A DNA stretch of 64,000 bases, taken from NCBI GenBank assembly GCA_947650285.1, contig CANTFL010000002.1:186001-250000 (forward strand). The letters are read 5' to 3'. Of this stretch, positions 16,197 through 47,685 are shown piece after piece (position 1 is the first letter of the stretch; each line of letters begins with the position of its first letter). The stretch comes from Hyaloperonospora brassicae. Taxonomy: Eukaryota; Oomycota; Peronosporomycetes; Peronosporales; Peronosporaceae. A model generated the notes under the pieces. It was not told the origin of the DNA, ran no database searches, and saw only the letters and a list, made by a program, of their open reading frames with translations. A program made the position numbers and the translations under genes.

Positions 16197-16203
16197 TCAT
16201 TCC
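16197..16203 (+). promoter_or_regulatory. Oomycete initiator (Inr) of the first ABCG gene
   Basis: TCATTCC matches the oomycete Inr consensus TCAYTYY and lies 42-48 bases upstream of the ATG at 16245, the usual distance for short oomycete 5' leaders. Confidence 0.55.
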
Positions 16204-16244
16204 TCATCCAGCGTGACGCACGACAAGCAAACGCACCCTCTGCA

Positions 16245-19064
16245 ATGGCGACGCGTCACTTGTTCTGGGCGTGGACACTGTCGCTCGCGGTCGGTGGCTG
16301 GTGGACTGCCTCGTCGCATGCCGCCAACGTCACGTGCGACGCGGAGTACGGCCAACGCAGTGCGTCCGGTGACTGCGAGTGCCTCGACGGCTTTAGCGGA
16401 TTGGGCTGTCGCCTGTGCTCCATTGACGCGGGAACGGACGCGTGCCGGGCACTGGGCGACGACTACTCGTGCGTCAGTGGGTTCGCCTACGGTACGACCA
16501 CAACCAGTAAAACGTACGCCTGCAGTCTGTCGCCGGACCTGCAAGCGCTGTTTTCAGACGGCGCGCTCGATGTGGCGTGTGACCGGAACGAAGAAGGGGC
16601 AGCCAACTGCACGGCCGTTGTCTACAAAGCTGCGGATACGGTGAACGGGGACCACCTCATTGAGTGCACGATGACCGAGTGCCACTTTCCGTCGGGCAGT
16701 GGCAACGGCGCGTGCGACATGATCCAGTGCAAGTGCGGTACCGGGTGCGCCGAGACGACGAAGATGGTCATTGAGCAAACGCTGAGCGGCAAACCCGTCA
16801 AAGTCCAAGTGCAAGACGGGTCAGACGACATGTCGATCCTCGTGGAAGACTCGCCGCTGCCCCTGTCCGCCACGTGCAAAGTCGCAGGCTGTGAACGTCT
16901 GGGAAGCGCCGCCGCGAGCGATCAGGCCAGTGTGGCTACGGCCAGTGCAGACGAGGACTCGAGCCTCGCAGGTGGAGTCGTGCTCGCGATCGTGGCATGT
17001 GCCATCTTGTCCGTGACGGTGCTGTTGAGTTGCATGGCCTTCTGCTGTGGGGTCGCAGGTACGCGTCGTAGCGAGCAGGACGACGACCTCGAGACGGAGC
17101 TGCTCAAAGTCAACTCGAAAGCCGTGGACACGCTCGAGTTCCGGAACGTCAGCTGCTTTACGACCGGCGGGAAACAGACGGCTGCCAAGTGCATTTTGAA
17201 CAAAATCTCGGGAACAGTGTCACGTGGACAGGTTCTTGGATTGCTCGGACCAAGTGGCTCTGGCAAAACGACTTTGCTCAATGCACTGGCTGTCGTTCAA
17301 AACGGTCAGTCGAAAAACTCGGGGGAGCTCTTGATCGATGGCAACAAAGTGACGAGAGCGTACCGTCGCGTGGCTGCCTACGTGCAGCAGGACGATACGC
17401 TGTACTCGACGCTGACGGTCCGTGAATGCATTACGTACTCCGCTCAACTTCGCCTTCCATTGTCCATGACGGATGCGGCGAAACGCGCCATGGTCGAGCG
17501 CGTCATCGAAGAGCTGAACCTTGGCCATGTCGCGGGTTCTCGTATTGGAGTGGTGGGAGGAAGTAGCTCGGAACGAGGCATTTCTGGTGGCGAGAGACGG
17601 CGTGTTAGCATTGGCATGGAGCTGGTCACGTCGCCCCGCATTCTCATTCTCGACGAGCCCACGTCTGGACTCGACAGCTCATCTGCCCACTCCGTGGTGA
17701 AGCTCATCAAGGAGCTGGCAGGTCACGACCGTATCGTGGTGCTTAGCATCCATCAACCAAGTGCCCGATCCTTTCTACTGCTTGATAAGATCATATTGCT
17801 TGGAAAGGGCCGGATGCTGTACTACGGAGCCCCTGCTAGCGCTGCGAGGTCCTTTCACGATCTCGGCTTTCGCTGTCCTGACAACGAAAACATTGCGGAC
17901 TTTATTCTTGATATCGCGAGCGACGCGGACAATCTGCAGGTGCTTCAATCTCGTGGATCGAACTTGGACTTTGAGGGTGCGCCAGCATCAGGCGTCATGG
18001 CTGGCAGCGCACAGAGTCATTTGCACAAAGCAGTATCTTCTGACACTGCGTTGGACAGCCCTCTGTACAAAGCCGAATCGTCGCCGTTTAAGACGGAAGA
18101 AGCGTCGGGATCTCGAAGTTTAGCCGCCTCGATTCGGATGACTACGGTTGAGATCCGCGTGCTGTTTATACGCACGGCGCAAAACATTCTTCGCCACCGC
18201 TCGCTGTTGGTCCTGCACACTGCGCTGAGCTTGGCGCTGGCTCTTTTCGGTGGCTTGATCTTCAACAACGTCTCGGATGACCTCGCTGGGTTCCAAAACC
18301 GTATGGGCGCTTTCTACTTCACACTGACGTTTTTCGGGTTTGCCAGCATGAGCTCTATGGACGTGTTCATTGGCGAGCGTCAGATTTTCCTCCGCGAGAC
18401 TGGAGCCATGTACTACGGAGCATTCAGCTACTTTCTCGCCAAGACTACGCTCGACTCTATGTTTCTGCGCGTCCTGCCAGCATCGCTGTTTGCGTGCATC
18501 TTCTACTGGCTCATGGGACTGCAAGCTGCAGCGGACCGCTTCTTTCTTTTCTGGCTTACGGTGGTGCTGTTCAATGTGGCCGCGGGCTCGATCTGCCTCT
18601 TTGTCGGGGTCCTGGCAACGCGTGTGGGTTCTGCCAACCTCGGCGCTACAGTCATGCTACTGATTATGCTGCTCTTCGGTGGCTTTCTGATCAACAGCGA
18701 GACAATGCCCGGCTCGGTCGGCTGGCTCCAGCACCTCTCCATCTTTGGCTACGCGTTCGAGATTTTGATGGTGAATGAGCTGGAAGGTACCACTCTGACG
18801 TTCAATGCGCCAGGATACCCGTCCATTCCTGTCTTCGGGGAAGTGTATCTCAAGACATTGGGCATGGACTACGCTGACCGCTACTACGACGTCGCGGCAC
18901 TTGCAGCGATTGCGTGCGTCCTGCAGTTTCTCGCGCTCTGTTGTTTGCTGCGGCAAGTTCCGTCGCACCTTAAGATGGCCGGTTATGACCAAAATGACGG
19001 CGCTACGGCCGTTGCGCAGAAAGATGCTGAATACAAGGCGTGTGGCTCGGATCAAATGCACTAG
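16245..19064 (+). CDS. ABCG-family half-transporter with EGF-like Cys-rich N-terminal ectodomain
   Basis: A 939-residue intronless ATP-binding cassette protein of the G (White/brown) type, probably a plasma-membrane exporter of lipid-like or toxic small molecules; the substrate is unknown. A signal peptide (about 1-26) is followed by a Cys-rich segment (31-216, roughly 20 Cys) with an EGF-like pattern CECLDGFSGLGC near 44-55, then a membrane helix (about 243-266). The cytosolic nucleotide-binding domain follows: Walker A GPSGSGKT 335-342, Q-loop VQQDD near 380, signature ISGGERRR 446-453, Walker B ILILDEPTSGLD 466-477 and switch His in SIHQPS near 503. The C-terminal membrane domain (about 653-925) has some six hydrophobic helices. 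All ATPase motifs are intact. Domain order NBD-TMD is that of ABCG half-size proteins, so it should dimerise. The extra N-terminal ectodomain and helix make it about 300 residues longer than a minimal half-transporter. Codon use is GC-rich. An Inr lies 42-48 bases upstream. Confidence 0.95.
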   Translation: MATRHLFWAWTLSLAVGGWWTASSHAANVTCDAEYGQRSASGDCECLDGFSGLGCRLCSIDAGTDACRALGDDYSCVSGFAYGTTTTSKTYACSLSPDLQALFSDGALDVACDRNEEGAANCTAVVYKAADTVNGDHLIECTMTECHFPSGSGNGACDMIQCKCGTGCAETTKMVIEQTLSGKPVKVQVQDGSDDMSILVEDSPLPLSATCKVAGCERLGSAAASDQASVATASADEDSSLAGGVVLAIVACAILSVTVLLSCMAFCCGVAGTRRSEQDDDLETELLKVNSKAVDTLEFRNVSCFTTGGKQTAAKCILNKISGTVSRGQVLGLLGPSGSGKTTLLNALAVVQNGQSKNSGELLIDGNKVTRAYRRVAAYVQQDDTLYSTLTVRECITYSAQLRLPLSMTDAAKRAMVERVIEELNLGHVAGSRIGVVGGSSSERGISGGERRRVSIGMELVTSPRILILDEPTSGLDSSSAHSVVKLIKELAGHDRIVVLSIHQPSARSFLLLDKIILLGKGRMLYYGAPASAARSFHDLGFRCPDNENIADFILDIASDADNLQVLQSRGSNLDFEGAPASGVMAGSAQSHLHKAVSSDTALDSPLYKAESSPFKTEEASGSRSLAASIRMTTVEIRVLFIRTAQNILRHRSLLVLHTALSLALALFGGLIFNNVSDDLAGFQNRMGAFYFTLTFFGFASMSSMDVFIGERQIFLRETGAMYYGAFSYFLAKTTLDSMFLRVLPASLFACIFYWLMGLQAAADRFFLFWLTVVLFNVAAGSICLFVGVLATRVGSANLGATVMLLIMLLFGGFLINSETMPGSVGWLQHLSIFGYAFEILMVNELEGTTLTFNAPGYPSIPVFGEVYLKTLGMDYADRYYDVAALAAIACVLQFLALCCLLRQVPSHLKMAGYDQNDGATAVAQKDAEYKACGSDQMH

Positions 19065-19291: not shown

Positions 19292-20350
19292 GTAATACTC
19301 GAACAGGTGATAGACACTTTTTGCCAATGGGTATTTGCTGTTTGGTTGTGTAAAATTGCGACCGTGTTGCGTTTGCGCGCATCGTCCCGTCACTGACTTC
19401 CCGGTCGCCATTAATGTTGAGCAATATAGAACGAAAACAAGTAATTGTTTATCCGAATCGAAACCATCAGACTTTTGGATTAAAACTCTTGTGCCGATAA
19501 CAAGCAATTAATTTTCTTTTCGCCGGCGAGAGAGGTCGACCGTCAGTGGATTGCAAGGTGTGACATGGACACGAATGCTGGTGACCATAACGTACGAACA
19601 GTAAGTTCTACTTTTTAGCGAGTGCCTCGCCAAGCAGATGTTAGCGATCGAATCATTGCTCTATGAAGAAGTCCCATGGCGGCAAACAATAAACGAAGGG
19701 CAGCCTTTGCAATTAAACACGACGAAAGACAGTAATGGGAAAACCCAAACATTTCGAGTTTTGGCACACGCAAAAGTCAGAAAGAGAGAGCAAATGTAAG
19801 GGAAGAAAGAGATATACTGACTACGACAGACGTATTCGCTACATGAAGTGCACATGATGTGAAAGACGAGGCCTCGCGCAATCGTAGTCGTATCAGCAAA
19901 TACCAAAATCGCTGTTTTCATCAGATCACGTTGATGTTGCTGCTGCGCCGACCAACCTGCGAAAGTACGCGGCTTAAAACGTGAGCTTAACTGGCCGCCA
20001 GCGTGGCTGATAGGTGTGTGGATTCATGTCTCTTGTTCTTTTGCAGCTAATCGAAATGTGTAACCGGGGAACTGGGATACTGCAGGTTACCCACCCCCCT
20101 CGTCTCCTCTTCCTCCCCGTGTGTCTGAAACGACGTTGACCAATCAATCCGTGACATTTACTTGAGCAACGGCATTCTATCCAATGAAACGCGTCTGTAT
20201 TCTCTACAAACTACGTCTGCCACGAAGATGATCACATAGATGGCTGCATTTGCGACACTGCGTTCGACATCTATTAACGGCAACTTAATCTTTTGACAAC
20301 TCTCCACAGTTAGCAATTGTTGGTCCGGCATCGAGTTGTCGACAACAAGA
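19292..20350. other. Intergenic region between the two ABCG genes
   Basis: No gene or domain recognised. I searched for a TCAYTYY initiator in the 130 bases before the ATG at 20351 and found none. Confidence 0.5.
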
Positions 20351-22198
20351 ATGGCCTCACCTGCTGACCATTTCGTGGAGATCACAACACCGACATCAGA
20401 AGTCGATGCCAAATGTCTATCGAGTCAAACACCACAGTACACACTGCAATGGCGCAACCTGAGTCTCAAAACCGTTGCGATAAGCCGCAAACAATCGGAC
20501 GAGAAGACCATTCTCTCCAACGTCAGTGGATGTGCACAGCCCGGCGAGCTTCTCGTCATCATGGGGCCCTCTGGTGCAGGCAAGAGCTCGCTTCTCGACT
20601 GTATCTCCGGACGCAATAGTGCCGTTGAGGGAGACATTCTACTGAACGGACATCCGTGGAGCGACACCACAAAGCGATTTTCTTCATACGTGATGCAAGA
20701 CGATCTTTTCTATCCGACCATTACTGTGAAGGAGCATCTGATATTCCAGGCAAAGCTGCGCATGGGAAAGACGGTATCACCAAAACAATACCGACAACGT
20801 GTGGACGACGTGATGGAAGAGCTCGGACTTCAGAAATGCCGCGATACGTTGATTGGCGGTATCTCTTTGCGAGGCATTTCGGGTGGAGAGCGCAAGCGTC
20901 TTTCATTTGCAACGGAGATCCTGATAAATCCGTCGATCTTGTTTGCTGATGAGCCAACATCGGGTCTAGATAGTTTCATGGCTGAAACAGTCACGATGCA
21001 GCTGCAGCAAATCGCTCGTGGTGGCCGAACGGTGATCGCGACGATTCACCAGCCATCTTCAGAAGTATTTGCACTTTTCGACCAGCTGTATCTGCTCTCG
21101 GAAGGTTCTTGTGTCTTTCATGGCAAAGCTGTGGACTCGGTAAACTATTTCGCGTCTCTGGGCTACACCTGTCCGTCGTTGATGAATCCAACGGACTATT
21201 TCATGAAGCAATTAGTTGTGATGGACAAAGAAACCGACTTGAATGGTGTTGCACGGATTGAGATGCTAAAAGAGTCGTGGACGCAACATCAATGTCTACC
21301 TCAAATTGAAGAGACTGATGGGGACAATGTGGTTGATGACTATCAAGACCCACGCTTAGGGTTTATCGAGCAGGTGGGAGTGCTTGCGCATCGAAATGTG
21401 GTACGCTTTGTGCGCGATCGCATTACTTTCCGCGCAACGATTTTGCAAACGTTGTTCATTTCTTTGATTGTGGGTCTCATTTACTTGCAGCTAGATCTCG
21501 ACCAGAAAGGAATCCAAAATTTTACAGGCGCTTTCTTTTTCTTGGTTGTCAACCAGACGTTCGGCGCTGCCAACCCAGTTTTCATCTCTGTACCACTGGA
21601 ACTACCGATCATCATTCGCGAGTACAGGGCAGGACTGTTTCACCTGTTCTCGTGGTACCTCGCTAAGAACGTGAGCGAGTTGCCGATGCAAATTCTCTTG
21701 CCGATTTTGTTCTTCGTGCCGACCTATTTCTTGATTGGTATCGGTCATGGATTCGACGTTTACATATCCCAGCAAATTATAATTATTCTAGTAAGCAGCT
21801 GTGCTGTGGGCATTGGATACATGGTTTCATGTTTAGTTCGTCGAGTGGACATCGCCCCCATTATTGGCGTTGTCATCATCCTACCCTTCTTGCTGTTCGG
21901 AGGACTGCTGATCAACTCTGAGGACTGCCCGGATTACTTTGTGTGGATCCAATATGTGTCCCCTATCAAATACGGATTCGAAGCTATGATGAAGATATTC
22001 TGGAAACAGGTTCCAATGGTCGCTTGCAACGACGCAATCGAAAATTGTTCGGCGCGTACTGGGGAAGACGTGCTGAAGAATTTTAGCATGCAGTCAAGGT
22101 CAGCACTAGTTGACGGTTTGATTCTATTGGCTATCAATGCTGGCTTCCGCACAATTGGATTCGCCGGTTTGTGGCTTAATCTGCGGAGGGGAGGATGA
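20351..22198 (+). CDS. ABCG-family half-transporter
   Basis: A 615-residue intronless ABC transporter with NBD-TMD order. I place the start at the ATG at 20351 (context ACAAGAATGG); the frame can be extended to a TTG at 20336, but that is unlikely to be used. The nucleotide-binding domain has Walker A GPSGAGKS 72-79, Q-loop MQDD near 116, signature GISGGERKR 175-183, Walker B ILFADEPTSGLD 196-207 and switch His near 233. A linker with NPTDYFMKQL follows near 280. The membrane domain (about 360-610) holds about six helices and the GGLLINSEDCPDYF extracellular segment typical of White-type ABCGs. Such proteins dimerise at the membrane and export hydrophobic compounds or sterols; the substrate cannot be inferred. 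It lies 1.3 kb downstream of another ABCG gene on the same strand, but it lacks that protein's ectodomain and differs in codon use, so a recent tandem duplication is unlikely. Confidence 0.95.
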   Translation: MASPADHFVEITTPTSEVDAKCLSSQTPQYTLQWRNLSLKTVAISRKQSDEKTILSNVSGCAQPGELLVIMGPSGAGKSSLLDCISGRNSAVEGDILLNGHPWSDTTKRFSSYVMQDDLFYPTITVKEHLIFQAKLRMGKTVSPKQYRQRVDDVMEELGLQKCRDTLIGGISLRGISGGERKRLSFATEILINPSILFADEPTSGLDSFMAETVTMQLQQIARGGRTVIATIHQPSSEVFALFDQLYLLSEGSCVFHGKAVDSVNYFASLGYTCPSLMNPTDYFMKQLVVMDKETDLNGVARIEMLKESWTQHQCLPQIEETDGDNVVDDYQDPRLGFIEQVGVLAHRNVVRFVRDRITFRATILQTLFISLIVGLIYLQLDLDQKGIQNFTGAFFFLVVNQTFGAANPVFISVPLELPIIIREYRAGLFHLFSWYLAKNVSELPMQILLPILFFVPTYFLIGIGHGFDVYISQQIIIILVSSCAVGIGYMVSCLVRRVDIAPIIGVVIILPFLLFGGLLINSEDCPDYFVWIQYVSPIKYGFEAMMKIFWKQVPMVACNDAIENCSARTGEDVLKNFSMQSRSALVDGLILLAINAGFRTIGFAGLWLNLRRGG

Positions 22199-25108: not shown

Positions 25109-26894
25109 GATGCGGCATTTTATTCAACTATAGACCCTAAGCTTATGATGATCAGCAATAAAATACTCAAAGTGAATATTCCAGCAATATTATATGTGAA
25201 AAGAATATTTACGATGTTTCGCTTTGGAGGATATATCAAGGAATATCACGTTCAAGGGGAAACTCTGTCTGTTCACATTCTAAGAAAATATGAAGGAAGT
25301 ATCTTTTTGGAGGGAATACAAAAGAAACGTAACTTTCTGAGGCAATTTCCGGCGGCTGATGACGACACTCTACTCATCGTTCACACAGACCACGATGTGA
25401 GCTGACCCATACACTTTTCATAACCAGACGCGCGCAATGTGTGGAGAACGAATTGTCGCATATCCATTTACTGCTAGATATTATCGGTTGGACAAAACTG
25501 GTGATAAATGTCATAACTATCCTGAAAATAGTCCTATATTGGCCCATTCAACGAAGCGTGCTCTACGATGTCCTCCGCGCTTCTGCATACACAAGAGTAC
25601 GTATGCCTTTTGGTGCACGTGCCTTATTGTTGTCAGTATGCATAGCTTATACTGAGTCAGCATAGGTGATTCGTACTCCGTTCTATGGTCGACTTCGTCG
25701 ATGTTACCGTCCGCCTCGCGCTCGTCACAATCACCCACGTTCTGCAGATGACAGCGGCCAAAGTGCCGCTTGGGATCCGAGACGATGCCGTACCCATCGA
25801 CTGGGTCTTGTCGTCGGTTCTGGTGTAGAAGCTGAACCCTGACATCGGCAAGCATTTGGCCATCCGTCATATGCCACGGGACTCTCGTTCTAACGCAAAC
25901 ACTGAGTCAAACCACTGCATTACCACGGCTTCTACCGCGATGATCGTTGATGGAAAATCAAACCACATGGAAAGCAGTAACAGACGCACCCTCACCTTTC
26001 GGCACTCGTAGAAGCCAACCTTGACGCCTGAACAGAAATTACCCGTCAAGAGTATGAGGATTGGAGATATTGGACGTAGTTTCCGGCCTCATTGTAGGTG
26101 ATATTGGCTTGGCGGAGTGGTGACGTGTGTTTGCTACTGTACGCTTTGTTTGCGTACGCAAAGTGACTTGCCTTGCATATGGAACCCACTGTTATCCTGA
26201 TGCGATTGACAACTCCGATAGGCTCTCAAACTTCGCCGTCTATCGAGCCAGTACTCATAAGGGGAGGTATTACCCTGTGGTGTGTGGGGACATATGATTT
26301 AGCCAAAGCTCCCGCTGCAAATCGAAGACTCAATCTGCACGATGGTAAGCGGTAAGAGCAGTGCCTTCTTTGTCCTATCGACACTTCGTCGCGCTTGACA
26401 AGCATGTTTCGTGTCCCTTTTTCGTGCGGTCAATAAATCCGCATGTTTCTAGAGCGCTCGTGAACGTGTGACAAGTGTGCAATGCCTACAGCCATTCTCT
26501 ACCGGCTCCTCTTGCAGCAAGAAACGCTTTTGATTGTCCGCGACTTCGAACATACCCACCACTTTCGCGACCGCACCCAGCAGCAATCTCCAGGTCCATA
26601 CGCTCCGTGGTTGTTTTAGAGTGAGTCTGCGGTTTTCTTCGGCACGCTAGATGCATCCAGATGTACGCGCGACATGACGGAGCAACCTTCAACGATCGGC
26701 CAGAACGCCCCAGCCTCGGGAATACTGCTGGATCGATGGGTATTTGCGACACTTTTACCCTACGCATCGTGTGCCAACAATCCCTTCCCAGCCATCACTT
26801 TCAAGCTTCAATGACGTGCTGCCCATGGCACGACGATCGTCTGTAGCTGCGTCGTAACGGACAGAATAGTAAGCGATCGTCGCAGTCTGGATCC
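25109..26894. other. Intergenic region with possible gene relic
   Basis: No intact gene. A hydrophobic relic (25441-25860) is described separately. The rest, up to the promoter of the pectin methylesterase gene, shows nothing recognisable. Confidence 0.45.
25441..25860 (+). pseudogene. Possible relic of a hydrophobic (membrane?) protein gene
   Basis: One plus frame (25441-25665) encodes a hydrophobic stretch (WTKLVINVITILKIVLYW). A different frame from about 25680 continues in a protein-like manner (VDFVDVTVRLALVTIT and VPLGIRDDAVPIDWVLSS) before a stop near 25830. Together they look like a frameshifted fragment of a polytopic membrane protein, but I recognise no family and there is no ATG in a good context. 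This could be chance. Confidence 0.25.
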
Positions 26895-26901
26895 TCACTC
26901 T
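26895..26901 (+). promoter_or_regulatory. Oomycete initiator (Inr) of the pectin methylesterase gene
   Basis: TCACTCT fits the TCAYTYY consensus and lies 41-47 bases upstream of the ATG at 26942, nearly the same spacing as for the first ABCG gene. A CT-rich stretch follows it. Confidence 0.5.
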
Positions 26902-26941
26902 GCCTTCTTCCTCGCCGCCACCAAGACCACGTCCTCGAAGT

Positions 26942-27985
26942 ATGAAGATATTCGCGCTGCCCATTGTGGCGCTTGCCAGCATCCTGTCGATAACTGCCGA
27001 CAGTGGAACGTGCAGTGGACCACAAGCTCGGTTCAAACCGCCGCCTGGTGCAATCGTTGTCGATGCGAAGGGTGATCCCAAGCACGACCAAGGCAGCTAC
27101 CGGACGATGAAGGAGGGCTTTGCAAAACTTGATGTCCGTACGGATAAAGAGCAGACGATCTTCATCTTTCCGGGAGTCTACAAGGAGCAGGTGGTCGTTC
27201 CGCCTCTCAAAGGTGCTCTCGTGATCCAAGGCGCCACGTGCGATGCGACGTCGTACGTCAAGAACGAGGCGACGATTACGCACGCGATGGCGCGGAAGGA
27301 CCTACCTCCAAATGTGACTGGTGATCACAATGCAATGACCAGCACAATGCGATTCAGGTCCAACAACGTGAAGGTTTACAATCTCAACATCGCCAATACG
27401 GCAGGCAATGTGGGACAGGCCGTCGCTGCTACCGTCGACGCCACAAACTGCAGCTTCTACGGCTGCAGCTTCACCGGACATCAAGACACTTTGTTGACCA
27501 AGAAAGGTCTTCAGCTGTATGCGAAGTCATACATCAATGGCGCTGTCGACTATATATTCGGCACCAGGGCGACGGCTTGGTTCGAAGGCTGCGATATTGA
27601 AAGCATTGGCAAGGGGTTCATCACCGCCAACGGTCGGTCTAGCGAAGACAGTGATTCCTTTTACGTCTTCAACCACGCGCGCGTGTACAGCTCCGATGCC
27701 AAGGCCTTCAACACAACCTTCCTTGGTCGTCCGTGGCGGCATTTTGCTCGCGTCGTGTGGCAAAACGGCGAGCTTGGCCGCGTTGTCAATCCTGCTGGTT
27801 GGTCAAAGTGGGGAGACGACGACACGTCGAAGTTGTACTTCGGAGAGTTCAACAATTTTGGCCCAGGCGCAGCTACGGGTCATCGAGCAAACTTCAGCCA
27901 ACAGTTGAACAAAGCGGTGGACATCAAGGAACTCTTTGGTGACAGCTACAAGAGCGAGTGGTGGGTCGACCCATCGTACCTATAG
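26942..27985 (+). CDS. Secreted pectin methylesterase (carbohydrate esterase family 8)
   Basis: A 347-residue intronless protein with a signal peptide (about 1-19). It should be secreted and hydrolyse methyl esters of homogalacturonan, producing methanol and de-esterified pectin open to lyases and polygalacturonases. The CE8 signatures are present in order: GSYRTMKEG near 51 (usual start of the parallel beta-helix), GHQDTLL at 179-185 with Asp182 as the acid/base, YINGAVDYIFG at 197-207 with Asp203 as the nucleophile, and FLGRPW at 260-265 with Arg263. The WSKW segment follows near 287. All catalytic residues are intact and the length fits microbial family members. It is flanked by intergenic DNA and later repeats; an Inr precedes it. 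A broken pectin/pectate lyase copy lies 21.8 kb to the right. Confidence 0.96.
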   Translation: MKIFALPIVALASILSITADSGTCSGPQARFKPPPGAIVVDAKGDPKHDQGSYRTMKEGFAKLDVRTDKEQTIFIFPGVYKEQVVVPPLKGALVIQGATCDATSYVKNEATITHAMARKDLPPNVTGDHNAMTSTMRFRSNNVKVYNLNIANTAGNVGQAVAATVDATNCSFYGCSFTGHQDTLLTKKGLQLYAKSYINGAVDYIFGTRATAWFEGCDIESIGKGFITANGRSSEDSDSFYVFNHARVYSSDAKAFNTTFLGRPWRHFARVVWQNGELGRVVNPAGWSKWGDDDTSKLYFGEFNNFGPGAATGHRANFSQQLNKAVDIKELFGDSYKSEWWVDPSYL

Positions 27986-29200: not shown

Positions 29201-29336
29201 ACGGGTCTAGATGAATGTAGTGTATGTAAGAAAAGAAGATTTATCCTAAGAGGCTTCGAGTATGTTAAACCCAGTTTAACTTTTCGTGACTCTGAGCAGT
29301 TTCTTCCTCAGGTAGTTCTTTCCTCTGCACGTACCC

Positions 29337-29862
29337 TGTAACGGGGTTACACGTCGGCTGGTAGCCGACGATAGGTGTGGTGCACACACGAGAGGGGGGT
29401 ATCCTATAAGGTAATATTAGAACACAGTGAGCGTATCAATTGTTGAAGACTGGTGTCTGTCATCAATTGATTGCAAGATCTTTTAAGAGGTTATTTAGGG
29501 CAGGTTAAACACGTTGTTCTAAGGTGTTCTTTTAGGTTAAATGAAGAAATAAAATTCAGTTCCCATTTTGACCAACATAAGACACGTGCCTTACGAGGCG
29601 TCTTTGATCGGGAGGACAGAAGCAACGCCTGTAAAGGTAGCTTGTCCTCGAGCACTCTGTGCTGTGATTCATTTGAATCGTTTGGTCCCTCTGGAACGGG
29701 GACCGTAAGCTCTCTGAGCTGTTGACTCTCTGAGCCGGGTTCTCTGAACCACCCTTTAAGCTCTCTGAGCTGTTGACTCTCTGAGTCGGGTTCTTTGAAC
29801 CGAAGTTGCTCATTGAGCGTAAAGTCTTCCTCTGACTTAAGGAGCTGTGTAGCTCCGCTACA
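29337..29862 (+). repeat. 5' LTR of element A (526 bp)
   Basis: Begins TGTAACGGGG and ends GCTACA with TGTA/TACA inverted termini. An internal duplicated motif (GCTCTCTGAGCTGTTGACTC) occurs twice near 29709 and 29759. The target-site duplication TACCC precedes it. Confidence 0.95.
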
Positions 29863-29880: not shown

Positions 29881-29921
29881 CAATCTACACATGAGTCGGT
29901 AACGACTGATCCTCTGCGAGG

Positions 29922-30956
29922 ATGGAGCAATCCACACCCCTCTCTGAGGCTCAAAAGGTCGCGCTTGATAAGCTGACCGCGGCTGTAGGCCTAGAGTATG
30001 TGGAGTTTCTAGCTGCACAGGGTCCCGATGTGCTCAATGCACGAGTAGAGGCCTTTATGCAGTATGAAACGGCCCTGTTGGGCCAGGTTCAAAACCATGT
30101 AGCGTCGGCTATGCCGACACGCTACGTGGATATGCCACCAGAAGAGGCGAAGCCTCGTCCCCTTCGGGTGGACGTTAAACTTTACTCCGGGAAGGAGGGG
30201 GAAAACTTGACCCTCTGGATCCGTGAGATTGAGATGGCCATGGACTCTGGTCTCATCTCACTAGAGAACCAGCGGGTCTCTTTGGCCATCTCTAAGCTCG
30301 ATGGTAGAGCTAGAGAGTGGGCTTTGACGTGTGGCACGTCGGTCAATTCGGCATTTCCCACGTGGGAATCGCTCAAGTTGGACCTTTTTCCAGTTTTCTC
30401 GCCGCCTAACCAGGCATATCGCGTGCGATCACGCTTCTTATCAACCCGGCAGGGTAAGAACGAGTTAACGGACTATGTCCAAGAGTTGAGAACTCTAATG
30501 GCTGCTATGCAGTCTGACCCTCTCCCTGAGACTGTCTACGTGACAGTGTTCATGGAAGGTCTCCGCACTGGCGTGACCAGAGCCGAGGTTTTTCGGGTCC
30601 ATCCCTCTACTTTTGAGGAAGCTGTGAGCGTCGCTCAAAATGATGAGCACAACTTCAAGTCGGCCAGACTTGGTTGGAATGGGTACAACCCAAGCTTTGC
30701 GAGGGCGGCCTCTGCGAGGACTTCGGCTTACTGTAAGCCAGAACCGATGGATCTCAGCCATGCTGAAGATGAAGGCGAAGCGGAGCTTCATGTTGCGGAG
30801 CAACGACAGGATGTGAGACGCTGTCACATGTGCGGAAGCACTAAACACTTGCGTCCCACTTGTCCTTTGCGTAAGCAACAACCGACTCCTATGAGTCGAA
30901 ACCCCAGCCTCAACCAGAAACCTGGTATGGCACGGGGAAACGTCGACACCCAGTAG
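29922..30956 (+). CDS. Gag protein of element A
   Basis: A complete 344-codon frame from ATG 29922, 60 bases after the LTR. The middle part is a retrotransposon Gag capsid-type region (LTLWIREIEMAMDSG, later ELTDYVQELRTLM). A single CCHC zinc knuckle (CHMCGSTKHLRPTC) lies near residue 303 and would bind template RNA. It would form the virus-like particle in which reverse transcription takes place. The stop is followed by a pol frame that is offset, consistent with frameshift expression. Unlike pol, this frame is undamaged. Confidence 0.92.
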   Translation: MEQSTPLSEAQKVALDKLTAAVGLEYVEFLAAQGPDVLNARVEAFMQYETALLGQVQNHVASAMPTRYVDMPPEEAKPRPLRVDVKLYSGKEGENLTLWIREIEMAMDSGLISLENQRVSLAISKLDGRAREWALTCGTSVNSAFPTWESLKLDLFPVFSPPNQAYRVRSRFLSTRQGKNELTDYVQELRTLMAAMQSDPLPETVYVTVFMEGLRTGVTRAEVFRVHPSTFEEAVSVAQNDEHNFKSARLGWNGYNPSFARAASARTSAYCKPEPMDLSHAEDEGEAELHVAEQRQDVRRCHMCGSTKHLRPTCPLRKQQPTPMSRNPSLNQKPGMARGNVDTQ

Positions 30957-30959
30957 GCG

Positions 30960-33900
30960 CGGGGCGGCCTACTGGGGTAGAATTGAGTTCTGTTGCATCT
31001 CTACGAGGTAGAGCAAAACAGGGCGTAGCCCCACAGAGCTCCGTGCCAGCAAGCACAGAGCGTGGATACAAGCCTGGCTTGTTAGTCGCTGAGGCGATAG
31101 ATAAAGGCTTTGGAAGCACTGGTCGATATTAATCGATTCTGGGGCGTCATGCAACTATGCTAGACGCCGTTCCCTTGAGGGGAGTCAGCAATATGCTGAG
31201 GCGCTCAAAGCGCACGACGGTGATTCCATCACTGTTCGGTTAGCGACGGGTAGTCGCGTTACTGTGCCTAAAGTTCCATTGAACTTGGGCGTGAGGTTTT
31301 TGGACTTTGATAGCACAGAACGCTGTCTCGTCCTTGACTTGGATTCGAGATACGATCTCATCCTAGGCATGGCATGGCTTGAACGCCACGAACCATGGAT
31401 CGATTGACGGAAGATGTCAATGTGCTGGACATTGGTATGTCAGAGTTATTTAACTCGAATGTCTATGACATGAATGTTGAGCGGAGCTCTTCTAATATGT
31501 TTGAAGAGAGTTGTACTCCGTTGAGTGATACTCGTTGTGATAATGAGTCACTGCATGCGTCAAGCATGGTTGGCCTACGGGCGGGACATACAGGAAGTAA
31601 TTCCCATGATGTCAGTGCGGTGGCACGTGAAAATACACAGAGAGAGGAAGGCCGTGATGGCACCTCACTGAATGTCGGTAATGACATTGATGGCGAGAAG
31701 CCAGAGTGTTCAGGGCTAAGCCCGAATGCTGTACGTGAAGTGGTCCGTGTAAATCCACTGGGTGAAGTGTTTGAGTTACGTAACACTTCACCAGATGTCG
31801 TTCAAGACATGAGCTCTCGTCTAGAGCGTGCTAAGACAAATAGCAATCACGGGGACTCGACTGTCCCGGCCTCTAGGAGGCGTACGGTTTCTGTGAGGAA
31901 ACGATTCCAGCGTAAGGTGGCCACTGTGAAGCGCCCATCGTATAAGAAGTCACGAAGTGATAATAGTAATAATACACTATTTACACTTGTCAATGGGTTG
32001 ACTGGCCATATCGATGACAATATTAGTCTTGAGACTCTTCCATCCGTGGATAAAATCTTTGAACTAGACGAAATGTCTGACGGCGAATTTAGCCAAGCCT
32101 TGCAGGCAGGAGAATTATACGAGTTAGTGGTCATTCGACCAGATATTGAGTTGAACTCATCCTCGTTATTGGACGAGTCTGTCCTTGAGGACACAAAGGC
32201 GGCATTGGATGCCCGTAGTGGATCCTCGATCCTTAAGGATCCTCTTGATCCGTTCTATCCTTTGTTAAAGGAATTTCAGGACGTGGTGTGTCACGACCCA
32301 CCGTCTGTATTACCTCCTGATAGAGGTGTGCGTCATGAAATTGACTTAGTTCCTGGAACTAAATACTGCGTAACACGGCAGTGGCCTTTGCCCAAGGAAC
32401 AGTGTGACGTCATAGACGACTTCTTTCGTGCAAAGCACGCGGCGGGGATGGTTCGTGAGAGCAAATCTCCCCATTCCACACCGACCTTCTGTGTCAAAAA
32501 TCCCAACGGGAAGTGGCGCATTGTTCATGCTTACAATAAGCTTAATGTGGCCACCATCCCGGCTCAGACACCAATTCCGAGGAAGGATGTTCTTCAGAAC
32601 AATATGGTGGGATGTACAATGTACAGTGCGCTCGACTTAGTCGATGGTTATTACCAGCTTCTCATGCGTGAGAAAGGATATTCCGCTAACAGCGGTCAGC
32701 ACTACAAGCGGTATGCTCTGGGAGTGGATCGTTATGCCACAGGGCTTGTCAAACGCGCCAGCTACGTTCAATCGTCTTGTGACGCAACTGTTTCGGCCTC
32801 ACCGAGGTTATGCACAGACCTACTTTGATGACATCTTTGTCCATAGTCGTGCAATGAACGGCCGGTCTGATGTGGATAATCACATCGACCATTTACGAGC
32901 AGTGCTCGAGTGCATGCGCACGAATAAGTTGTATGCCAACGCCTCTAAGTGCATCTTTGGTGCTCAAAAGATTCCCTTTTTGGGGTGCTTCATCGGGAAG
33001 CGTGGTCTTGGAGCGGATCCCGCTAAGATAAAAGCCATAGTCGATTGGCCGGTTCCTCAGAACCAGAAGGACTTACGTAAGTGGCTTGGTCTTGCCAATT
33101 ACTTACACAAGTATAGTGCAAACTATGCAGACATGGCTCGACCATTGACCAATCTCCTTAAAAAAGATGTGGAATGGTGTTGGACGAACACCGAGCAGGA
33201 AGCCTTTACGGCTGTAAAAGAGAGCCTTCTTCATGCGCCAATCTTGGCTTTGCCCGATCCTGTTCGGCCTTTCAGTGTCGTCTGTGACGCATCTGACTTT
33301 GCCATTGGCAGCGCTCTGTTACAAACAGATGATGATGGGCGGGAACGCGTTATTGCGTTTGAGTCCCGACAGCTAAAGGCTGCGGAGAAGAACTATCCTG
33401 TTCATGACAAAGAGCTACTTGCAATGAAGTATGTTCTCGTCATATTCAGAGTTCATCTTCTTGGCTCTAAGATGTTTGTGATCTATACAGATCATGCGTC
33501 ACTACGCACTGCGACCCAGTCGCCTCACCTCTCTCAGAGAATGGCTCGTTGGCTTTCCTTCTTTGCCGAGTACAACTTCGAGGTGAAGTATAAGCCGGGC
33601 AAGCAAAATGATTTGGCGGATGCGTTGTCACGCAGGCCTGACTATGAGCTTGCTCATGTTACGACTCTGTCGTCACCGGTCACTGACCTAATCCGCACGG
33701 CATATGTCAAGGATGAACATTGTGTAGCCCTGCTACGTGCTCTAGGGAGCGAGGAGTTTAAAGACTCGGACATAAAATTGTCGGCACGGTTACGTGCGAG
33801 GTTACATCGATATTCCATCGATCAAGGCCTGTTGTGCTATAGCACGGATGTGGAGGATACCCCTCGCATCGTTGTCCCTCATGATGAGGAGTTGAAGTAT

Positions 33901-35470
33901 CGGATCCTCTATGAGGCACATGATACTGCGTTGAGTGGTCATCTCGGTCGTGAAAAGACCTACGGCTCTGTGAGCCAATGATATTGGTGGCCCAAACTAT
34001 ACAAATGGGTGAGCACCTATGTACGTACGTGTGAAACGTGTCAACGGGTGAAACCCTCACCACATGCGGCAGCGCCGCTGGCTAGTTTGCCTATACCCAA
34101 AGGGTGTTGGGAGTCCATCAGTATGGACTTCCTGTTCGGTTTACCGAAGGATTCGTATGGAAATACGGGTATTGTGGTCTTTGTTGACCGTTTGAGCAAG
34201 ATGGCTCATTTAACGGCGGTGCCAGACACCATTGATGGTGAAGGTACAGCGACGCTGTTTATCGATCGCGTGTTTCGACAACACGGTCTGCCGTTGGCAA
34301 TTGTCTCTGATAGAGATCCTCGCTTCACTGGGACGTTTTGGAATTCCATCTTCAAGGTGCTCGGCACACGTTTGGACATGTCCACAGCGGATCATCCGCA
34401 GACCGATGGTCAAACGGAGCGCGTTAATCGTGTCATTGGTGACATCTTGCGCAGTGTTTGCGCTGAAACACCTAAGCGTTGGAGCTCGATGCTCCCTGTC
34501 GTTGAGTTTGCGTTGAATAACGCTGTGCATGCCTCCACCGGCTACACCCCGTTCTACGTGAACGGTCTCACACACCCTCGCGTTCCGTTAACGCTACCAC
34601 TACGTGGTTCAGGGCTTGGTGGGGGAGAGAGTTGCCGATCGGCTTGCTGATATCAGCCCTGCTACTGTTCAAAAACAGGTAAGCGAGTTTCTCGCAACGC
34701 GATTGAATGTCTTACGACATGTGCGTGACGCACTGGCTGATAGCCAAGATAAGCAGAAGGAACAAGCAGATGCCAAAGGCAGAGGTTGTATTGAACGTTA
34801 TAAGGTCGGAGACCAAGTTCTACTCAATGCTAAAAACCTACCTACAAATGTAGTATCCGCCGTCTTCAAGACGAAGTTGCGCCCGCGCTTCATTGGACCC
34901 TTTACGGTCGTCGCAAAGAAGGGACTTGCGTATACGCTCAACCTTCCGCGCAAACTGCGCACACACCCCGTGTTCTACGTTGGCATGCTTAAGCCGTATC
35001 GGGATCCGTCCCACGTGAACTTGGAGGCGCTTGCGCCGGGTAGGTTGGCTTAGCCATCGGTTGCTGAATCCGTATCAGGAGGTCAAGCTGAGCCTCCATC
35101 CGGGCTTTGCCCAACTCCAACGCCCGAACACGGGCTCGCATTGCGTCGAACGCACTCTGGGTCTGACCCAACGTCTCACGAAGACCACTCAGCTCGAGAA
35201 GCACCTTCTCGTGCTCCTCCTTCGGTATACCGACCACCTCCGACGCTGCTCGATGAGCAAGGGAACCGCCATTTCCATGTGGAACGACTCCTGAAACGAC
35301 GTCGTCGTCAGGGTCAATACCAGTATCTGGTAAAGTGGCGAGGGTACCCGGAGTCGGAGAACTCGTGGGAATTTGAGGTACCCCTTCGGCAGGATTGCCC
35401 ATACGCCGTTGATGTTTTTGAACATCGTGGCAGGGGTCATCCTTCGACCGATATCGCTTCCCACCAATAG
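30960..35470 (+). pseudogene. Pol polyprotein pseudogene of element A (PR-RT-RH-IN-chromodomain)
   Basis: Domains in order: aspartic protease (ILIDSGASCNYARR near 31135; YDLILGMAWLERH near 31360); reverse transcriptase (YFDD at 32821-32832); RNase H (CDASDFAIGSALL near 33284); integrase with an HHCC zinc finger (CETCQR near 34033) and a DD35E triad (Asp 34126, Asp 34309, Glu 34417); chromodomain (YLVKWRGYPESENSWE, about 35270-35405). Compared with element B I see these lesions: a one-base deletion before the protease, a 106-bp deletion near 31403, a one-base insertion near 32670, a TGA at 33979, a one-base insertion near 34628 and a TAG at 35051 between integrase and chromodomain. The catalytic residues themselves are intact. 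Confidence 0.93.
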
Positions 35471-36290
35471 TGGTGGAAGCAGGTGGGTACTTTGGTTCCG
35501 CTTGACCAACTCCCACTTCCATCGGCACAGCCGGAGCATAGCGGGTGCGAAATCGCAATTGGCCTCTGGCCTTAAGCTTGGCATAGTCATACCGAAGCTT
35601 TCGTTCGAGACGAACATCTGCCACATTGGCACTTGCTGTGAGAGCTAGCATGCTGCTGAGGTGACGTTTCCGGTGCACCCAGCGCACAAAAGTGTTGTCC
35701 TCCTCCTCCGGAGATTCGCCTGCGAATAAGAGGATGGGTATACCCCTCATCGGTGGCACCGGTGCACCCCGTGCTTGCGTGTCAAGTCGCAACTTGTATT
35801 GACTTAGAGTCGTCAAGTGGGGTTGCAGGTACCTCTCACGAAGTGCCTGTCGGCTCGCCACTTCATCAGAAGATGTCGGCTCAGCGCCAATGGCCCACGT
35901 TGCCAGGGAACGACCTGTCGTTTGGCGTATACGCTCTTCCACATTGAGTGGCGTGAACTGATAGCCACGACGACCCTCAAGGTCTGCCGCAAGCTGCATA
36001 CGGCGCTGAGCGCTCTCCTCTTGTTGGATTACCAACTCTTGTTGCTCATCGAGCGGGTTGGTGATGATGTGTTCACCTGCATCTGTGGTATGATGCTGCG
36101 TTTCTCACGCGGTGGTCTCACTACGCTCGGCAAATGGGTTTGGTGCAGTATGAGGCGATGCCTCTTGCACTGGTGAGTTGGACATTGTCCGTTCTTCACC
36201 ACGGACATCGGTATCACTACCATAGTCCTCCTCCACATTAATGCCGAGGTGAGAAGAGAGAGTCGGGGACTCGTAAGGTGGCGATGCCAT
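34989..36290 (-). pseudogene. Antisense open reading frame at the 3' end of element A
   Basis: On the strand opposite to gag-pol, one frame runs from ATG 36290 to a TAA at 34989, about 433 codons, with a single in-frame TGA at 36107-36105. The part after the stop is 348 codons long. It overlaps the sense chromodomain and integrase tail. The product would be hydrophilic, with an acidic Ser-rich N-terminus (MASPPYESPTLSSHLG), a basic middle and a heptad-like C-terminal segment (KEEHEKVLLELSGLRETLG) that looks coiled-coil. I recognise no domain. Element B keeps a homologous N-terminal frame and other fragments. Antisense ORFs at this place are known in some plant Ty3/gypsy elements, where their function is unresolved. 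The alternative is a by-product of sense-strand coding, but about 800 codons' worth of sequence outside pol is also open, which speaks against that for the N-terminal half. Confidence 0.6.
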
Positions 36291-36385
36291 GGTGTTTCGT
36301 GCTTTGCAAACCGTGAGGTTAGAGTGCACACACACCGTTCTCTTCGAGGAAAAGTTCGATTGACGTTTTGTGGTAACGTCAGTCT

Positions 36386-36397
36386 GGTGGGGGAGGG
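36386..36397 (+). other. Polypurine tract of element A
   Basis: A G-rich run (GGTGGGGGAGGG) directly precedes the 3' LTR, where plus-strand DNA synthesis would be primed. Confidence 0.7.
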
Positions 36398-36918
36398 TGT
36401 AACGGGGTTACACGTCGGCTGGTAGCCGACGATAGGTGTGGTGCACACACGAGAGGGGGGTATCCTATAAGGTAATATTAGAACACAGTGAGCGTATCAA
36501 TTGTTGAAGACTGGTGTCTGTCATCAATTGATTGCAAGATTTTTTAAGAGGTTATTTAGGGCAGGTTAAATACGTTGTTCTAAGGTGTTCTTTTAGGTTA
36601 AATGAAGAAATAAAATTCAGTTCCCATTTTGATCAACATAAGACACGTGCCTTACGAGGCGTCTTTGATCGGGAGGACAGAAGCAACGCCTGTAAAGGTA
36701 GCTTGTCCTCGAGCACTCTGTGCTGTGATTCATTTGAATCGTTTGGTCCCTCTGGAACGGGGACCGTAAGCTCTCTGAGCTGTTGACTCTCTGAGGGGTT
36801 TTGAACCACCTTTAAGCTCTCTGAGCTGTTGACTCTCTGAGTCGGGTTCTTTGAACCGAAGTTGCTCATTGAGCGTAAAGTCTTCCTCTGACTTAAGGAG
36901 CTGTGTAGCTCCGCTACA
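36398..36918 (+). repeat. 3' LTR of element A (521 bp)
   Basis: It matches the 5' LTR except for three substitutions (each C in the 5' and T in the 3' copy) and a small indel cluster around 36795. The target duplication TACCC follows at 36919-36923. Confidence 0.95.
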
Positions 36919-36923
36919 TACCC

Positions 36924-45100: not shown

Positions 45101-46760
45101 TCGATATTCCATCGATAAAGTCTTGTTGTGCTATAGCACGGACGTAGAGGATACCCCTCGCATCGTTGTCCTTCATGATGAGGAGTTGAAGTATCGTATT
45201 CTCTATGAGTTACACGATACTGCGGTGAGTGATCATCTCGGTCGAGAGAAGACATATAGCGCCGTGAGCCAATATCATTGGTGGCCCAAACTTTACAAAT
45301 GGGTAAGCACATACGTGCGTACGTGTGAAACGTATCAACGGGTGAAATCTTCAGCGCATGCGACTGCGCCGCTAGCTTGTTGGCCATACCCTCGAGGTGT
45401 TATGAGTCCATCAGCATGGATTTCATGTTCGGTCTGCCGAAAGATGGGCAAGGCAATACGGGTATCGTGGTCTTTGTTGACCGTTTGGGAAAGATGGCTC
45501 ACTTAGCGGTGGTGCCGGATACCATTGTTGGTGGAGGTACAGCTACGCTGTTTATCGATCGCGTGTTTTGACAACACGGTTTGCCGTTGGCAATTGTATC
45601 TGATAGAGATCCTCGCTTCACTAGGAAGTTTTGAATATACATCTTAAAGGTGCTCGGCACACGTTTGGACATGTCCACAGCGGATCATCCGCAGACCGAT
45701 GGTCAAACGGAGCGCGTTAATCGTGTCATTGGTGACATCTTGCGCAGTGTTTGCGCTGAAACACCTAAGCGTTGGAGCTCGATGCTCCCTGTCGTTGAGT
45801 TTGCGTTGAATAACGCTGTGCATGCCTCCACCGGCTACACCCCGTTCTACGTGAACGGTCTCACACACCCTCGCGTTCCGTTAACGCTACCACTACGTGG
45901 TTCAGGGCTTGGTGGGGGAGAGATGGCCGATCGGCTTGCTGATATCAGCCCTGCTACTGTTCAACAAACAGATAAGCGAGTTTCTCGCACGCGATTGAAT
46001 GTCTTACAACATGTGCGTGACGCACTGGCTGATAGCCAAGGAAGGCAGAAGGAACAAGCTGATGCTAAAGGCAGAGGTTGTATTGAACGGTGTGAGGTCG
46101 GAGACCAACTTCTACTCAATGCTAAAACTTACCTACAAATGTAGTGTCTGCTGTCTATAAGACAAAGTTGCGTCCGCGCTTCATTGGACCATTTACAGGC
46201 GTCGCAAAGAAGGGACTTGCGTATACGCTCAACCTTCCGCGCAAACTGATCACACACTTTGTGTTCTACGTGGGCTTGCTCAAGCCGTATCGGTATCCGT
46301 CCCACGTAAACTATGAGGCGCTTTCACCGCGTAAGTTGGCGTTGCCATCGGTTGCTGAACCGTATCAGGGGTCAAGCTAAGCCTCAATCCGGTCTTGGTC
46401 CATCTACAACGCCTGAACACGGGCTCGCATCGCGTCGAGCGCACTCTAGGTCTTACTTAAATTTCTCACGATGACCACTTATCTCGAGAAGTACCTTCTC
46501 ATACTCCACCTTCGGTATACCAACCACCTCCGACGCTGCTCGATGAGTAAGGGAACCGCCAGTTCCATGTGGAACGACTCCTGAAACGACGTCGTCGTCA
46601 GGGTCAATACCAGTATCTGGTAAAGTGGCGAGGGTACCCGGAGTCGGAGAACTCGTGGGAATTTGAGGTACCCCTTCGGCAGGATTGCTGGTACGCCGTG
46701 AATTGTTTTGAATATCGTTGCAAGGGTCATCCCTCAACCGAGAGCGCTTCTCACCAATAG
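42150..46760 (+). pseudogene. Pol pseudogene of element B
   Basis: Protease (ILVDSGASCNYARR near 42335; the segment missing in A near 42595-42700 is present here), reverse transcriptase (YFDD near 44117), RNase H, integrase and chromodomain (about 46560-46690) can all be followed. Lesions include a two-base deletion at 42525, TAG stops at 43696 and 44245, a frameshift near 43190, a TAG at 44968 and several in integrase (near 45070, 45400, 45569 and 46140). At the position of A's TAG at 35051, B has a Leu codon, showing that the ancestral pol read through into the chromodomain. Confidence 0.9.
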
Positions 46761-47579
46761 TGGTGGGAAGTAGCGGTTTGCTCCGCGAAAAGGGTCGGAA
46801 CCCGCGGCTACCGTCGTAGCCGAAGCATATCGTGTGAGATTACTCAACTGGTCTCTAGCCTTGAGCTCGGCGTATTCGAACCGAAGCTTTCGTTCTAGAC
46901 AAACATCGGCCACATTAACACTTTATCTCAGAGATGGGACGCTTCTGAGGTGTCGGTTGCGGTACACCTAACGGATGCACTGGTTGTCCTCCCCCTCAGG
47001 CAAATCATCGACAAACAACAAGATGGATTCACCCCTAAGCGGTCGTTCCAAATGACCACGATCCAAGCTTTCAAATTGTGCCTTGTATTGACCTTAAGTT
47101 GCTAGGAAAGTTTCGAGATACCTCTCATGTAGTAATTGGCGTAATAAGATGTCTTTAGGAGTCGTAGCCTCTAGGCCAATGGCCCATGCTGAATCGCTAC
47201 GGCCTTCCGTTTATCAGAGACGTTGCTCCACGTCAGGTATAAAATCACACAACCGCTCCGGTTTTGAATGACCCCTCTGGGTCCGAGCGCGACGAAGATT
47301 AATCTCCTCTTGTTGGAGAACCAAGTCCTGTTTCAAATCAATCGGATTGGTGATGATGTTACCATCCGCATCTGTTGTATGATGCTGCGCCTCGGCTGTG
47401 GTGGTATCACCACGTTTAACGAGCGGATTGGGTGCTGAAAGAGGTCGTACCTCAAGCACAAGTGAGTGGGACGATGTCTGTTCATCTCCATGTACATTGT
47501 TATTGCTACCGTGGTCTATTTCCTCATCGAAGTCGAGGTAGGAGGAAAGAGTCCGAGACTCATTAGATGGCAAGGCCAT
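46453..47579 (-). pseudogene. Antisense ORF relic of element B
   Basis: From ATG 47579 an open minus-strand frame runs to 47214 (121 codons) and is homologous to the N-terminus of the antisense frame in A: both start MA-P--ES-TLSS and share APNP, HHTTDA and IITNP. A second open piece (46737-46453) matches the C-terminal half of A's frame. The parts are in different frames, so the copy is broken. Confidence 0.55.
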
Positions 47580-47685
47580 GGTGGTTGGTGTTTTGGTAAA
47601 CCGTGAGGTTGTAGCACACACACCACCCTCTTCGAGAAAAGAAATCGATTGACATTTTACGGTAACGTCAGTCTGGTTGGGACAG

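Follow-up and report, generated by a model that had tools for sequence, protein, structure and literature searches.

A selectively constrained antisense frame at the 3' end of an oomycete chromodomain Ty3/gypsy retrotransposon

Antisense accessory genes of long terminal repeat (LTR) elements have been described in plants, in the fungal element Boty and in some retroviruses, and the accounts cited leave their origin and function mostly unclear (PMC7264820, PMC8365987, PMC10186651). For the plant aORF-3R genes (gene23 of Grande, that of RIRE2, and TRP28 of Retand), the sections cited give the function as unknown, with hints of a nuclear one (PMC7264820, PMC11963269), and for the Grande protein they report a nuclear location and a possible regulatory role (PMC11963269, PMC8365987). 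The gene brtn is antisense in the Boty retrotransposon of Botrytis cinerea (Zhao et al. 2011, cited in PMC7264820, PMC8365987). HBZ of human T-cell leukemia virus type 1 (HTLV-1) is nuclear and contacts its partners through a C-terminal bZIP domain (PMC10186651). Among oomycete elements, Chronos is a Ty3/gypsy element whose pol ends in a chromodomain and which has a second ribonuclease H (RNase H) (PMC5348765). Here we analyse a 64,000-nucleotide stretch of the oomycete Hyaloperonospora brassicae ("the window"; assembly GCA_947650285.1, contig CANTFL010000002.1, positions 186,001 to 250,000, forward strand), which holds two related Ty3/gypsy elements, A and B. Judged by its substitution pattern, a long minus-strand frame at the 3' end of A is a genuine protein gene and not a chance frame.

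The antisense frame of A begins about 110 nucleotides short of the 3' LTR and runs into the tail of pol. Residues 1-272 of its 433 have no pol opposite them, the C-terminal third lies opposite pol, and the stop codon falls opposite the end of the Tf2-1-like SH3 domain. Translation of positions 36290-34989 agrees with the first-pass annotation, which had read here a minus-strand frame of about 433 codons with one TGA, from the pol tail to near the 3' LTR. Neither window copy, A or B, encodes an intact antisense protein. The features of the frame and of the pol tail opposite it are as follows, where omega is the ratio of nonsynonymous to synonymous substitution rates (dN/dS) with its interval in parentheses.

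34989..36290, minus strand: antisense open reading frame (ORF) of element A, by translation 433 codons before the stop, with an internal TGA as codon 62 (36105-36107)
36291..36397, minus strand: leader between the antisense start codon and the 3' LTR, 107 nucleotides, with a polypurine tract at about 36386-36397
36069..36290, minus strand: residues 1-74, acidic N-terminus predicted to be disordered, with motifs VDY.SDT and APNPF; IITNPLDE starts at its end
35556..35960, minus strand: residues 111-245, a domain predicted to be globular, with a basic helix, ADVRLERKLRYDYAKLKARGQLR, at its end; omega 0.26 (0.15-0.42)
35403..35459, minus strand: residues 278-296, bipartite basic cluster resembling a nuclear localisation signal, by sequence pattern
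35064..35222, minus strand: residues 357-409, helix predicted to form a coiled coil, facing the unconstrained pol linker
35273..35425 (about), plus strand: chromodomain of pol (PF00385, E 8.6e-14), opposite a predicted disordered antisense linker; pol-frame omega 0.30 (0.13-0.84)
35057..35269, plus strand: pol linker from SH3 to chromodomain, open; sense-frame omega 1.67 (0.88-3.48), i.e. unconstrained
34808..35002, plus strand: Tf2-1-like SH3 domain of pol (Pfam)

A six-frame search of the genome (100.56 megabases) with the 371 residues of A that follow its own in-frame stop gave 1472 first-look candidates, of which 110 matches were scored; by count from the match table, 40 of these were stop-free inside the aligned stretch. 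In all, 72 loci were retrieved, and the alignment on A comprises 59 rows, namely A and B plus 57 further loci, with L001, L046 and L056 left out. Drawn from the best-match list, the rows are biased towards good matches; in one batch of ten loci, five were chosen for being stop-free. Within this sample all 59 rows retain the start codon and 54 the terminal TAA. Stops in the frame are not frequent, 32 of the 59 best-match rows having neither a stop nor a frame-breaking deletion (insertions uncounted). Over this stretch, the mean number of stops in the five remaining frames ranges from 8.6 to 22.9. An in-frame stop of pol just ahead of the chromodomain in A is unique to A among the aligned rows.

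Stop avoidance as a stand-alone proof of coding was set aside as weak. The probability of the frame staying open under neutral drift is 0.016-0.066 per older copy (n = 16), and only 8 of the 16 are open over residues 1-272. When pol was recoded at random with synonymous codons, the antisense frame opposite the chromodomain alone remained open in 28.5% of trials, which is unremarkable; for all 159 codons opposite pol the figure was 1.7%.

For the substitution pattern between subfamilies, we compared 42 young with 16 older copies. Both single-coding regions have the same synonymous divergence (dS), 0.284 in the antisense-only part and 0.278 in the integrase, which makes this comparison clean. 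Over the antisense-only residues 1-272, dN/dS was 0.42 (0.31-0.58), the lowest of the six frames of that stretch (others 0.53-1.12). Constraint was strongest in the predicted globular domain listed above, weaker in the disordered N-terminus (omega 0.55, 0.32-0.97) and in residues 246-272 (0.58, 0.21-1.69), and evident again at residues 341-412 (0.37, 0.19-0.78); the integrase of the same copies gave 0.19 (0.13-0.26). Codon-model tests of 16 copies, with omega free against omega fixed at 1, returned 0.357 for residues 1-272 (twice the log-likelihood difference, 2dlnL, 104), 0.237 for residues 111-245 (2dlnL 96) and 0.41-0.43 for residues 341-412 (2dlnL 13). Between the A and B types of the element, dN/dS of the antisense-only part was 0.22 (0.14-0.31) at a dS of 1.32. 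Outside the overlap with pol the ratio is therefore well under 1 between subfamilies, between types and in the codon model, and the surmise from the letters that this looked like a protein under past selection is upheld by purifying selection on residues 1-272. This pattern and the conserved start and stop codons show an antisense protein under purifying selection, with both its ends fixed.

Two alternatives to a selected protein bear directly on these numbers. In the first, the frame is a by-product that pol codon usage on the opposite strand keeps open, with no protein made. The ease with which the stretch opposite the chromodomain stays open under recoding and an antisense omega of about 1 there would fit, as would the stops that 8 of the 16 older copies carry in residues 1-272. 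However, those residues, without pol opposite, show the constraint given above (0.42 and 0.22, 2dlnL 104), and the conserved globular domain lies wholly outside the pol overlap. We consider this alternative, already contradicted by dN/dS outside the overlap, extremely improbable. In the second, the protein acts against small-RNA silencing by the host, or it is the antisense transcript that is functional through double-stranded RNA control and the protein is secondary. The parts of the literature cited report sense and antisense small RNAs along Gypsy elements of Phytophthora infestans (PMC3522703) and retroviral antisense transcripts that can function as RNAs (PMC10186651), but an RNA-only function leaves unexplained the amino-acid constraint (globular-domain omega 0.13-0.26 over the subfamily and type comparisons) and the fixed start and stop codons. 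We think this explanation unlikely, an RNA function alongside a protein being possible.

Element B holds a homologous antisense frame, and the genome contains a second lineage that it resembles.

46280..47579 (about), minus strand: antisense frame of element B, homologous to that of A and broken; similar to the second (B-type) lineage

The first pass had described homologous minus-strand coding in B. Homology stood, since the start and the motifs APNP, HHTTDA and IITNP are kept; as coding it did not, B aligned to A's frame having 8 in-frame stops and 4 frame-breaking gaps. Outside the overlap the two elements share only about 65% of bases. A genome search for the second lineage, with the B-like relative P0027 as query, listed 108 matches, 96 of them at places absent from the A-query list; identity to P0027 was 62-72% at these 96 new places and 61-63% at the 12 shared ones. 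Eight B-type loci, all chosen among matches without stops, yielded frames of 433 residues in six cases; the other two had 438 and 178 residues, the latter counted from its first usable ATG.

Between the A and B types, dS is about 1.3 in the antisense-only part and only 0.47 in the integrase. The antisense module and pol thus seem to differ in history, most simply through recombination near the end of pol, which suggests that a 3' module has been exchanged between element lineages. As A and B have two old antisense lineages joined to pol genes that are more closely related, the A-B divergence overstates the pace of the antisense protein. The module far more diverged than the integrase is the antisense-only one (window 35474-36290 against 46780-47580, with loci L061-L072). 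Over the chromodomain core A and B are 94.7% identical, and dS between the types falls from 1.32 to 0.16. We abandoned this identity and drop in dS as the main footprint of dual coding, as module exchange or differing ages confound them; with histories that differ (integrase dS 0.47 against 1.3), A-B identity is no proof of dual constraint, and the young-old comparison, in which both single-coding baselines agree, was used in its place.

Relatives of the antisense protein were found in other species. Homologues at E <= 0.1 numbered 128, and the 120 listed include Peronospora, Hyaloperonospora and Albugo laibachii; other oomycete genera thus have homologues of equal length. A profile search (119 proteins) added Phytophthora cactorum, P. 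palmivora and P. nicotianae, and a further one (145 proteins, 120 listed) added P. idaei, P. ramorum, P. infestans, P. sojae and P. fragariae as well as P. fragariaefolia, P. megakarya, P. capsici, P. citrophthora and P. aleatoria, giving 13 Phytophthora species among the matches listed. Almost all named rows are uncharacterised, hypothetical or unnamed. By these matches the family spans Peronosporales and Albugo. Scans of viral and prokaryote contigs for DNA of the relatives found none, so the DNA comparisons rest on one genome and the cross-species tests on proteins. Two P. cactorum gene models join a piece of the antisense family to something else: P0144 to a sense-strand SH3_Tf2-1, probably a chimera over neighbouring element copies, and P0244 to a WY-domain stretch (PF22748), probably an element and an adjacent gene fused by annotation.

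For the overlap with pol, a protein-only test was applied to these relatives: at the known frame phase, any two adjoining antisense residues restrict which sense residue can lie opposite, and the chance expectation was set by substitutions sampled outside the overlap in the same proteins. Across the chromodomain core of 42 relatives (1135 changed positions), A's sense residue was still possible at 83.4% of positions compared to 46.1% (standard deviation 1.2) expected. The corresponding values were 61.9% compared to 50.3% for the pol tail and 58.4% compared to 50.1% for the pol linker; in nine distant relatives, the linker gave 48.8% compared to 47.4%, and the chromodomain 86.2%. The two tryptophan positions are compatible in 36 of 37 and 37 of 40 relatives. 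Tested singly (1000 draws each), the chromodomain gave p <= 0.001 in 14 of 14 chosen relatives and in another 15 of 15 chosen from Phytophthora. These 29 include Albugo laibachii (31 of 35 positions), P. infestans, P. sojae and P. ramorum; the linker fell below 0.05 in 1 of 14 and 5 of 15. In H. arabidopsidis (P0005), the frame passes the usual stop and gives much the same peptide as A's frame opposite SH3. As all 29 singly tested relatives keep the chromodomain residue far above chance, the overlap between antisense frame and chromodomain is, on this test, old and common to the 29, by descent or by transfer. Of the dual coding proposed for the chromodomain at first pass, the shared overlap therefore stands, and selection on the antisense frame there is undetectable within the genome.

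These results also bear on whether the element carries a captured host gene, as a lack of similarity to other known retroelement proteins might suggest. No named single-copy host family appears among the homologues listed (120 of 128, 119, and 120 of 145), where no systematic look for one was made, and since the pol overlap is common to the tested relatives, any capture would predate the spread over Albugo and Peronosporales. We consider a host origin distinctly unlikely.

An AlphaFold model of the antisense protein had low overall confidence (predicted local distance difference test, pLDDT, 61.6), and we used only its local features. It predicts a helix for residues 79-108, one long helix for 357-409 and, between them, a mixed domain (about 111-245), with disorder over 16-74 and 248-354. 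Net charge is +8 over residues 216-250, the basic helix end of the conserved domain. By a crude pattern, the basic cluster recurs in 19 of 30 long relatives; [QH]KR.RR occurs in 11 of 15 Phytophthora relatives. With the model as guide, constraint over the shared DNA is divided: the chromodomain faces a disordered antisense linker, and the antisense coiled coil faces an unconstrained pol linker. Opposite the coiled coil, pol dS falls to 0.053 (0.029-0.089) from 0.278 in the integrase, and because the coiled coil lies beyond the chromodomain, the antisense frame must remain open across it. The overlap may be tolerated because each strand sets a flexible linker against a structured part of the other.

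The basic helix in the most conserved domain, the basic cluster and the coiled coil would also suit a Rev- or CERV-like factor, which binds the element's RNA and carries it from the nucleus or into particles and is not a transcription regulator; an accessory protein of such a kind is described, in the part of the source cited, for the LTR element Cer1 (PMC10309623). However, family and fold searches returned no homology or fold match to RNA-binding families, and an export factor for sense RNA encoded in antisense would be unusual, and we regard such a factor as improbable. Transposase_28 (PF04195), the domain of Retand TRP28, was absent among matches up to E 10 for ten diverse members, and among the 25 of 27 families listed for 43 members. 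The only bZIP match among the ten was an insignificant one to bZIP_2 (E 7.1, P0125), and in model and sequence the predicted coiled coil has no adjoining basic region.

We think it rather probable that the frame is a decayed accessory gene of an oomycete chromodomain Ty3/gypsy family that encodes a nuclear dimeric regulator, expressed from an antisense transcript of the 3' LTR. The gene lies antisense between pol and the 3' LTR and continues under the 3' end of pol, A being a decayed copy. An antisense mRNA starting in or next to the 3' LTR would be translated, and the protein would enter the nucleus through the bipartite basic cluster, dimerise through the coiled coil and bind nucleic acid or chromatin with its conserved basic domain. 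By analogy with HTLV-1 HBZ and the antisense proteins of Grande and Retand, it may regulate the element's own expression or integration.

Several observations weigh against this gene or its proposed role. Residues 413-433, beside SH3, show no selection between young and older copies (omega 1.33, 0.69-2.56). Opposite the chromodomain, the antisense frame has no selection of its own detectable within the genome (omega 1.01, 0.52-2.18), and the codon model for residues 273-340 gives 0.63-0.64 with a 2dlnL of only 2.7; here the chromodomain holds the DNA, and the antisense protein has a predicted disordered linker. Inside single groups dN/dS is nearer 1 (older 0.72, young 0.61), a value that free decay of inserted copies would be expected to give. 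Pol codons on the other strand fix part of the basic cluster, which may thus be partly a by-product, and the relatives in the overlap tests are non-independent samples. Family and fold searches gave no match above background for the globular domain or the whole protein. A promoter scan found none, but it covers bacterial promoters only and is uninformative for an oomycete.

A broader reading, which we offer tentatively and hold to be rather unlikely, is that the accessory gene is ancient and common to oomycetes, lies antisense to pol, shares coding DNA with the chromodomain, and encodes a new family of nuclear proteins governing where or when the element integrates. If so, this nuclear family would perhaps act on the integrase-chromodomain protein of the opposite strand, and the overlap would tie the evolution of both proteins together, lasting since before the split of Albugo and Phytophthora. 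The constraint measured here adds a further case of an antisense accessory gene in a distant eukaryotic lineage, with a long-lived overlap of a chromatin-reading domain and an opposite-strand protein. It would be a clean natural example of two proteins on one DNA stretch that set structured against flexible parts on both sides. A number of "hypothetical proteins" annotated in Phytophthora and downy mildews are also explained by it, and the family lends itself to functional tests.

The host element itself, by its structure, is a full-length Ty3/gypsy LTR retrotransposon with a chromodomain. Its two LTRs are 98.3% identical over 526 aligned columns (4 mismatches, 3 gap openings), and a target duplication of 5 bp, TACCC, stands at 29332-29336 and again at 36919-36923. 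The element has a gag, and domains in gypsy order with the chromodomain after the integrase.

29337..29862: 5' LTR of element A, by LTR comparison
36398..36918: 3' LTR of element A, putative source of the antisense transcript
29910..30956, plus strand: gag ORF of element A (Retrotrans_gag and Ty3_capsid, Pfam)

On the sense strand the order is gag, reverse transcriptase, RNase H, integrase, SH3 and chromodomain, with several broken frames in A's copy. In Pfam, the ORF at 32641-33981 contains reverse transcriptase, gypsy RNase H and, of the integrase, the zinc domain only; the integrase core match of A (E 1.2e-06) lies below Pfam's own cut-off and the zinc domain above it. Elsewhere in the window, two adjacent plus-strand frames (16188-19064 and 20297-22198) encode ABC transporters (ABC_tran and ABC2_membrane), a 370-residue frame upstream of A (26873-27985) a pectinesterase (PF01095, E 1.3e-45), and a 248-residue frame at 57986-58732, with an RVT_1 match just below Pfam's cut-off, is a further retroelement remnant.

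Element A resembles Chronos, likewise an oomycete Ty3/gypsy element whose pol ends in a chromodomain. The second RNase H (archaeal/plant-type) typical of Chronos was absent from A's ORF of reverse transcriptase, RNase H and integrase, where the broken pol was searched by pieces, and in the Chronos paper the word antisense occurs 0 times (PMC5348765). Titles and abstract beginnings of the papers listed by searches of an open-access library, with subscription papers mostly outside this set, mention no antisense ORF of oomycete elements and none opposite a chromodomain. Like HTLV-1 HBZ and ASP of human immunodeficiency virus type 1, the oomycete gene is an antisense accessory gene at the 3' end of an LTR element, as far as the cited sections describe them (PMC10186651). 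It differs from HBZ in that its family has no significant bZIP match and in that it is known from sequence alone. To our knowledge, neither HBZ nor ASP lies opposite a chromodomain. Like brtn of Boty, it is an additional antisense gene of a non-plant LTR element and sits near the 3' end; no fungal name occurs among the homologues listed, brtn being compared by description only. As the first-pass annotation had noted, some plant Ty3/gypsy elements have antisense ORFs (aORF-3R) at the same place, namely those of Grande, RIRE2 and Retand in the sections cited (PMC7264820, PMC11963269). The oomycete frame shares their defining features: it is an antisense ORF, lies between pol and the 3' LTR, is present in many copies and is conserved across species. 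It differs from Retand, a non-chromovirus, in that ten diverse oomycete members have no TRP28 domain, the host lineage is another, the element has a chromodomain, and the frame runs under pol, overlapping that chromodomain.
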